From Opitutus sp. GAS368 (GTDB lineage Bacteria > Verrucomicrobiota > Verrucomicrobiia > Opitutales > UBA953): a DNA stretch of 64,000 bases. Under the pieces are notes generated by a model. That model made no database searches. It saw only the letters and a list, made by a program, of their open reading frames with translations, and was not told where the DNA came from. A program made the translations under genes and the position numbers. The stretch is taken from contig CAMBGQ010000005.1 in the NCBI GenBank assembly GCA_945866215.1, positions 1-64,000 of the forward strand, given 5' to 3'. The number at the start of each line of letters is the position of its first letter. Positions within the stretch are counted from its first letter, which is position 1. Positions 62,257-64,000 of the stretch are shown here, one piece after another.

Positions 62257-62289
62257 GTCGGGGTAGTTCCTTCTTGCTAAGCCCCCGAC
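62257..62289 (+). terminator. Strong hairpin between the hypothetical gene and the rpsO leader; terminator or leader element
   Basis: GTCGGGG-TAG...CTA-AGC-CCCCGAC; no clean U-tract. Confidence 0.4.
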
Positions 62290-62320
62290 GGTTCTTCATT
62301 TCCATGGGTCATCTTCGTTA

Positions 62321-62418
62321 GGGAGAGGGGCGGAGTCCTTCTCACGCTGGTCGGTAGGCGAAAGCCTATTCCAGACGGAGAGTCCGGCTAAACGGCGGGG
62401 CTCTCGGGAATTTCTCCC
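62321..62418 (+). promoter_or_regulatory. Candidate structured 5' leader of rpsO (four helices)
   Basis: Closing arms GGGAGA/TCTCCC enclosing hairpins GCGGAG/CTC(A)CGC, CTGG..TAGGC-GAAA-GCCTA..CCAG and GAGAGTCC/GGGCTCTC. Confidence 0.65.
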
Positions 62419-62454
62419 AAGTCGGCCATCATCAACCCAAAACTAACCCCCACC

Positions 62455-62715
62455 ATGTCGGTCAATAAGTCGGAAGTCATCAAGAAGCACCAGCAGGACG
62501 CCAAGGACACCGGATCACCTGAAGTCCAAGTCGCCCTCATCTCCGCCCGCGTCACCCACCTGACCGAGCACTTGCGCACCCACCGCAAGGATTTCCACTC
62601 TCGTCGCGGCCTGATCATGCTGACGAACCGTCGTCGCAAGCTTCTGGCGTACCTGAAGTCGACGGATCTGGATCGCTACAACGCGCTCCTGGCCAAGCTC
62701 AACCTTCGCAAGTGA
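62455..62715 (+). CDS. rpsO: 30S ribosomal protein S15
   Basis: [51 protein letters not shown]. Confidence 0.97.
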
Positions 62716-62746
62716 ACGGCGCCTCCGGGCGACCTCGTTCACCGAG

Positions 62747-62777
62747 CGTCCCAGCCTAGGCTGGGACGTCCGTTTTT
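62747..62777 (+). terminator. Hairpin with T-tract between rpsO and pnp
   Basis: Perfect palindrome CGTCCCAGCCTAGGCTGGGACG followed by TCCGTTTTT. Confidence 0.75.
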
Positions 62778-62840: not shown

Positions 62841-64000
62841 ATGAAACAGAAACACTCCGTGACCATCGAAGAACTCGGTATCACGATCAACACGGGCTCC
62901 ATCGCCCGCCTCGCCAACGGCGCGGTCACCATCAGCAAGGGCGAAACCACGCTCTTCGTGTCGGCTACCGCCGCCGAAGACCTGCGCTCCCCCGACCAGG
63001 ACTTCTTCCCCCTGACCGTCGACTACCGCGAGAAGTTCGCGGCAGCCGGCCGTTTCCCGGGCGGTTACTTCCGTCGCGAAGGTAAGCCTTCCGACAAGGA
63101 AATCCTGACCTCGCGCCTCTGCGACCGTCCCCTCCGCCCGCTCTTCCCCGAAGGCTTCCTCAACGAAGTCCAGGTGATCGGCCTCCTCCTCTCGGCTGAC
63201 CAGATCAACGACTCCGACGTGCTCATGGTGAACGGCGCTTCCGCCGCTCTCCTTTGCTCCGACATTCCTTGGAACGGACCGATCGCCGGTATCCGCCTCG
63301 GTCGCGTCGCCGGCCAGTTCGTCGTCAACCCGACCCACGAACAGCAGTATGAGTCCGACCTGGACCTCATCTACGTCGGCAACGAGAGCGACATGATGAT
63401 GATCGAAGGTTCGGCTGACCAGCTGCCTGAAGCCGATTTCATCGCCGCCCTCGAATACGCCCAGAAGGCCATCCAGCCGATCATCGCCGCTCAGCGTAAG
63501 CTCGCCGCGATGTACTCCAAGACCAAGCGCGTCTTCCCGCTCGTTGTCTGCGAACCGAAGGCTCTCGCCATCTGCGAACGCGTGGCCGCCGAAGGCGACC
63601 AGCTCAAGAAGGCAATCTTCCTCGCTTCCAAGAAGGAACGTGGCGACGCCGTCAAGGCCGTGGTCGAGAAGTCCAAGGCCGCCTGTAAGGCTGAGCTCGG
63701 CGACGTCTTCGACTCCCGTCAGATCAAGATGGCCTTCGAAAAGCTCCAGGAAAAGGTCTACCGCAACGCCATCATTCAGAACGGCGAACGTGCCGACGGC
63801 CGCAAGCCGCTGGATCTCCGGGCAATCTCCTGCGAAGTCGACGTGCTTCCTCGCGTCCATGGGTCCTCGCTCTTCCAGCGCGGTGAAACCCAGGGTCTCG
63901 TCCTCGCGACTCTCGGTACCTCCAAAGATGCCCAGGAAGTCGACGCCATCACCGGCGGCCCGAGCAAGCGCTCGTTCCTCCTGCACTACAACTTCCCGCC
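62841..64000 (+). CDS. pnp: Polynucleotide phosphorylase, 3'-truncated by window edge
   Basis: GEELGI-like [83 protein letters not shown]. Confidence 0.96.

Follow-up and report, generated by a model that had tools for sequence, protein, structure and literature searches.

An RNA leader with a conserved, pseudoknotted fold precedes rpsO, the gene for ribosomal protein S15, in the window (the whole 64,000-nucleotide stretch of DNA that was analysed) and across the bacterial order to which this DNA belongs. The leader is associated exclusively with rpsO, and one of its hairpins bears a motif of the kind that S15 reads in 16S rRNA. We regard it as highly likely that this is an S15 autoregulatory leader of a new structural class, carried by an mRNA that lacks a Shine-Dalgarno (SD) sequence, and we propose that S15 binds it and represses rpsO. 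A distinct, putatively S15-responsive leader had been suggested in a preliminary description of positions 62321-62418, whose letters and coordinates are correct. This suggestion is supported by the order-wide occurrence as a single copy at rpsO only, covariation, the lack of an Rfam match, the GU/GC or G.G element and the pseudoknot. S15 is the textbook case of a single protein regulated via many unrelated RNA folds.

Occurrence of the leader

The leader spans approximately positions 62313-62428, ahead of the rpsO start at 62455. It folds far better than shuffled sequence (-54.2 kcal/mol, z = -4.2; 0 of 200 shuffles equally stable). Among 56 relatives searched, 29 congeners bear the same leader upstream of rpsO, making 30 sequences with the window genome. 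Every congener with intact upstream DNA has the leader ahead of rpsO; in those without it, either rpsO was not found or the contig ends inside rpsO.

The survey of rpsO upstream DNA was extended to sister genera and, outside the family, to 40 genomes of the order. Homologues that have diverged in sequence precede rpsO in at least 17 families, and the order of elements in sister genera and other families is kept although sequence identity is low: CGUUAG, H1, the 5' strand of P0*, H2, an ACG linker, H3, H4, the 3' strand of P0*, a spacer and ATG. A search with a descriptor of this topology matched nearly all rpsO upstream regions of sister genera and other families, with a P0* of 4-9 bp in almost all members (strand pairs across the order: CAUGAUUUU/AAAAUCAUG, CGCGGCUUG/CAAGCCGUG, CGAUUGA/UCAAUCG and CCUAGG/CCUAGG); because the descriptor demands the topology, such matches alone are not evidence, and covariation is. 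A covariance model was built from an 18-member MAFFT alignment, which was not fitted to a structure model and contained no member of the window genus. It matches 66 of 75 leaders, in 17 families, and its sole significant match in the 64-kb window is at 62313-62439 (35 bits, E = 4.7e-6).

Where both positions were compared, there is one match per genome of the order, ending 13-46 nt from the rpsO match, with the exception of two genomes of genus g72 (family f14), in which the distance is about 90-110 nt. A few members or lineages of the order (L118, L123, L126 and L141) gave no match. Outside the order, class- and phylum-wide searches found no significant match beside rpsO, and none was found in the rpsO-containing loci examined from other orders. 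The best matches beyond the order are marginal (E = 0.02-0.07; f35, f36 and G675). Those in f35 and f36 were dismissed as leaders because they are not near rpsO; the one in G675 has E = 0.02. A second weak match of the genus model, in G011 (L056), was also dismissed, its sequence appearing unrelated by eye. Two congeners carry elsewhere a 22-nt copy (95%) of the leader 3' end CCAAGTCGGCCATCATCAACCC (G011:C15:98151-98172 and G028:C18:6671-6692).

The 16S sequence ACACCTACGGGTGGCAGC, present in members of the order, is taken here to be the target of probe EUB338-III (Verrucomicrobia and relatives). This signature places the order hosting the leader in Verrucomicrobiota, and it is probably Opitutales.

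Revised fold and its covariation

The features of the leader and the rpsO locus are as follows.

62274..62301, + strand: likely promoter, TTGCTA (62274-62279) and TCATTT (62296-62301) with a 16-nt spacer, proposed from conservation
62316..62319, + strand: 5' strand of the pseudoknot helix (PK), CGUU within the conserved CGUUAG, pairing with 62374-62377
62323..62343, + strand: H1 hairpin, GAGAGGGGC - GGA - GUCCUUCUC, 62323-62331 pairing with 62335-62343 (covariation)
62348..62353, + strand: 5' strand of the long-range helix P0*, UGGUCG, with its partner at 62423-62428 (covariation)
62354..62369, + strand: H2 hairpin, GUAGGC - GAAA - GCCUAU, with a GNRA loop (strong covariation in genus and order)
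62374..62377, + strand: 3' strand of PK, GACG, immediately 5' of H3 (covariation)
62378..62405, + strand: H3 hairpin, 8 bp, then G62386.G62397 over G62387-C62396 (covariation)
62406..62418, + strand: H4 hairpin, GGGA - AUUUC - UCCC (covariation)
62423..62428, + strand: 3' strand of P0*, CGGCCA, ending 26 nt ahead of the rpsO ATG (covariation)
62429..62454, + strand: spacer, A/C-rich and unstructured, without an SD sequence
62455..62715, + strand: rpsO, ribosomal protein S15, 86 aa (open reading frame; a protein search finds rpsO in relatives)

The preliminary description had suggested looking for compensatory changes in homologous leaders, and they are present. In the 18-member alignment, two-sided changes occur at 34 of the 40 pairs, and 84% of cells are paired, compared with 34-52% when the partner strand is slid. 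In the alignment of the 66 leaders, which was fitted to the covariance model and is thus biased towards the structure, compensatory changes are found at 38 of the 40 pairs and support H1, P0*, H2, H3 and H4; 89.0% of cells are paired against 39-51% after sliding, and 0 of 500 shuffles reach the observed values. Within the genus, RNAalifold on 25 distinct leaders gives the local hairpins H1, H2, H3 and H4, with two-sided changes at six pairs, and differs from the fold first drawn.

The individual helices are supported at both levels. Eight of the nine H1 pairs are intact in 30 of 30 congeners (the innermost pair is intact in 25 and broken in 5), and both H1 stems show compensatory changes at every counted pair, with 90-95% paired, among the 66 leaders. 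The P0* pair 62351/62425 is U-G in 15, C-G in 11 and U-A in 4 members of the genus; order-wide, all eight P0* pairs show compensatory changes (88.7% paired). Moreover, P0* strands of the same leader pair at 7.1 of 8 positions compared with 5.3 for strands swapped between families, and all eight positions pair in 38% of own but 2.6% of swapped strand sets. Compensatory changes are seen at 10 of the 12 H3 pairs in the order alignment. H4 is paired in 30 of 30 sequences of the genus, with A-U replaced by G-C in one congener, and its pairs covary order-wide. In family f14 (L114, L117, L121, L131, L134 and L137), H3 bears an extra apical helix above the G.G/G-C step. A closing pair CUU/AAG in the window genus was dropped, being kept only in genera g1 and g23.

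The PK strands are fully complementary (4 pairs) in 63 of the 66 leaders, whereas shuffling gives a mean of 49.9 and no value as high in 5000 shuffles. The strand combinations are CGUU/AACG (29), CGUU/GACG (14), CGUC/GACG (12), CGCU/AGCG (3), CGUU/AGCG (3) and CGUG/CACG (2). Because this helix crosses P0*, the fold is a pseudoknot, and since the 3' strand of PK is continuous with H3, the two are probably stacked.

It is highly improbable, given this fold, that the leader is a domain of three hairpins closed by GGGAGA and TCTCCC, as the preliminary description had it. The two arms are complementary, and five of their six pairs are kept by 29 or more of the 30 congeners, yet the genus shows six A.C mismatch cells and no compensatory change. 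In all other genera the closing pairing is absent, and the arms sit in other helices that covary (the 5' arm in H1 and the 3' arm in H4). Forcing the arms together with the H1 of that fold costs about 8 kcal/mol, and this H1, drawn as GCGGAG/CTCACGC, clashes with the covarying H1 at 62323-62331/62335-62343. The upper part of H2, GAAA loop included, was drawn correctly and covaries, but the basal CTGG/CCAG part competes with the order-wide P0*; H3 at 62378-62405 was correct as drawn and is supported by covariation. P0*, H4 and the pseudoknot had been omitted.

The basal extension of H2 (CUGG/CCAG) occurs in this genus only and is nearly invariant there. When the window leader is folded without constraints, the extended H2 is favoured over P0* by 2 kcal/mol, a figure in which the pseudoknot energy is uncounted; the small difference between the two forms leaves room for a switch. 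In most congeners, GUUAG (62317-62321) is also complementary to CTAAC at about 62442-62446 (ACUAACC in the spacer before ATG). This pairing appears in the best fold of the window leader and would compete with the pseudoknot; it is lost in several congeners, for which reason it was not adopted, and none was seen elsewhere in the order.

The rpsO locus and the putative S15 recognition element

The TTGC and TCA parts of the likely promoter are kept throughout the genus with a variable spacer between them, and the TTGC box recurs order-wide upstream of CGUUAG; a strict sigma-70 scan gave no match to the proposed promoter at 62274-62301. This conservation suggests that transcription likely starts just before the leader and its CGUUAG. 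The gene pnp lies downstream of rpsO, at 62841, and a terminator-like hairpin (GCGTCCCAGCCTAGGCTGGGACGT, with a T run after it) stands between the two at 62746-62769, so that rpsO is probably transcribed mostly alone. An A/C-rich sequence ending in ACCATG precedes both genes. A tiny upstream open reading frame (ATGGGTCATCTTCGTTAG) was dismissed because of its unconserved ATG.

An SD-like motif precedes rpsO in only 1 of 69 leaders of the order. Within the 64-kb window such motifs precede 9 of 47 long open reading frames, some of whose starts are uncertain. Translation in this lineage thus seems to be largely SD-independent, and the near absence of SD-like motifs before rpsO argues that SD sequestration is not the mechanism. 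The fold ends a median of 18 nt before the ATG in the order, measured from P0*, and 26 nt in the window.

The S15 site in 16S rRNA consists of a three-way junction and, on helix 22 about one turn away, a GU/GC step; this step recurs in rpsO leaders, and the Thermus leader has a G-G mismatch instead (PMC4684408). In the leader described here, G.U/G-C or G.G/G-C stands in H3, eight pairs from the junction, in 57 of the 66 leaders. Pair 9 of H3 is G.G in 33 leaders (the window included), G.U in 24, G-C in 8 and A-U in 1; the window genus has G.G at this pair, and one sister genus has G-C. By eye, against a 16S sequence from the order, the strand order of the step equals that of G666.U740/G667-C739. 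The junction has an invariant ACG beside H3 and a GG opening H4, and no clear counterpart of the GGC base triple of the rRNA was recognised in it. G.U and G.G are the two states on record for the S15 site in 16S rRNA and rpsO leaders, and the H3 step corresponds to the GU/GC element of that site or its G.G variant, mimicking the rRNA. The S15 of the window has, by inspection, residues aligned with His42, Asp49 and Ser52 of E. coli, which read the GU motif there (PMC8470358). The rpsO leaders of E. coli and mycobacteria require a pseudoknot that has a U-G/C-G motif (PMC10931766, PMC8470358), and the mycobacterial pseudoknot is located upstream of the start codon (PMC8470358).

Proposed regulation and comparison with known S15 leaders

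An rpsO-linked, pseudoknotted RNA that copies part of the ribosomal S15 site suggests that S15 very probably shuts off its own production. The 5' UTR of rpsO would fold into a compact domain of PK, H1 and a P0* that closes the junction of H2, H3 and H4, with H3 probably stacked on PK. Free S15 that 16S rRNA has not taken up would bind the junction and the G.U/G-C step of H3 (G.G/G-C in the window) one helical turn up, a contact modelled on S15 at 16S helices 20-22. Once bound, S15 would make P0* and the pseudoknot more stable a short distance ahead of the start codon; the stabilised fold could then block the 30S subunit, compete with it or trap it on this mRNA without SD, with feedback repression of rpsO as the outcome. 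We infer the binding of S15, repression as the direction and initiation as the step from the fold, its linkage and its motif.

Genomic linkage alone does not distinguish S15 from another ligand or a stability element. The leader might be a structured 5' UTR element with a role in mRNA stability or constitutive initiation, as a stabilising 5' fold or a standby site, with no sensing of S15. A stable 5' fold followed by an open A/C-rich spacer fits such a role in a lineage whose translation is largely SD-independent; however, it would need no long-range covarying helices, pseudoknot, invariant ACG junction or G.U/G.G over G-C, all of which are kept order-wide, nor an exclusive association with rpsO, and we consider it unlikely. 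Sensing of another ligand, such as another ribosomal protein, PNPase or a small molecule, appears less probable still: leaders of ribosomal protein genes occasionally bind a protein encoded elsewhere, and pnp is the next gene, but the immediate neighbour encodes S15, the terminator-like hairpin parts rpsO from pnp, and H3 bears the element that S15 reads in rRNA.

Autoregulation by S15 is thus the preferred reading, and a more specific form of it can be put forward tentatively, as somewhat doubtful: in the window genus, the RNA may switch between the extended-H2 form and the form with P0* and PK, S15 picking the second and closing an A/C-rich ribosome landing site, which would make it a new structural class of S15 operator for initiation independent of SD. 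If so, it would be the first described ribosomal-protein feedback switch in Verrucomicrobiota. S15 autoregulation here would add a separate, pseudoknotted solution to the S15 leaders, across an order and in a phylum without one in the literature searched, and would offer a case of ribosomal-protein feedback on mRNAs without SD. Because members of the order alternate between G.U and G.G at the recognition step, one RNA family could be used to test which rRNA features S15 needs.

The window leader matches no Rfam 15 family, whether the gathering cut-off or a looser one is applied. At the looser threshold, 20 members gave chance-level matches only (sX11 in 1 of 20, E = 0.2, with 25.4 bits where the cut-off is 70), and an Antizyme match on the opposite strand (E = 5) is likewise at chance level. 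Published bacterial S15 leaders are from Gammaproteobacteria, Firmicutes, Thermus, Alphaproteobacteria and mycobacteria, with candidates in other groups (PMC4137082, PMC7247131, PMC10931766). No S15 leader from Verrucomicrobiota is reported in the open-licence literature searched, and the leader is for this reason termed a new structural class; the earlier suspicion that the class was undescribed agrees with both searches.

The mycobacterial rpsO 5' UTR resembles the window leader in having a pseudoknot upstream of the start codon and a U-G/C-G type motif (here G.U/G-C in 24 members and G.G in the window), and in that it can switch between a hairpin and the pseudoknot (PMC8470358). It is, however, a two-stem pseudoknot with an SD sequence (PMC8470358), whereas the window leader combines PK and an extra H1 with a junction at which P0* closes off H2, H3 and H4, without SD; no sequence similarity was noted. 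The E. coli operator also has a pseudoknot and a U-G/C-G motif, but its pseudoknot takes in the SD sequence and the start codon and traps the ribosome (PMC10931766), in contrast to the folds of the order, which end upstream of the ATG at the distances given above and almost all lack SD. As described in PMC4684408, the Thermus thermophilus leader shares a multi-helix junction and a G-G at the GU/GC position with the window genus, but it is a three-way junction mimicking the GGC triple, and no pseudoknot is described for it there; the Geobacillus leader likewise has a multi-stem junction and, at a distance of about one helical turn, a GU/GC like that of the G.U members of the order, but it has another topology and belongs to another phylum, with no homology detected. 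Helices 20-22 of 16S rRNA share with the leader a junction and a G.U/G-C step one turn along an arm, with the strand and the sequence of the two pairs identical; they differ in forming a three-way junction that is not pseudoknotted and in placing the step about 10 bp from the junction, compared with 8 bp in the leader.
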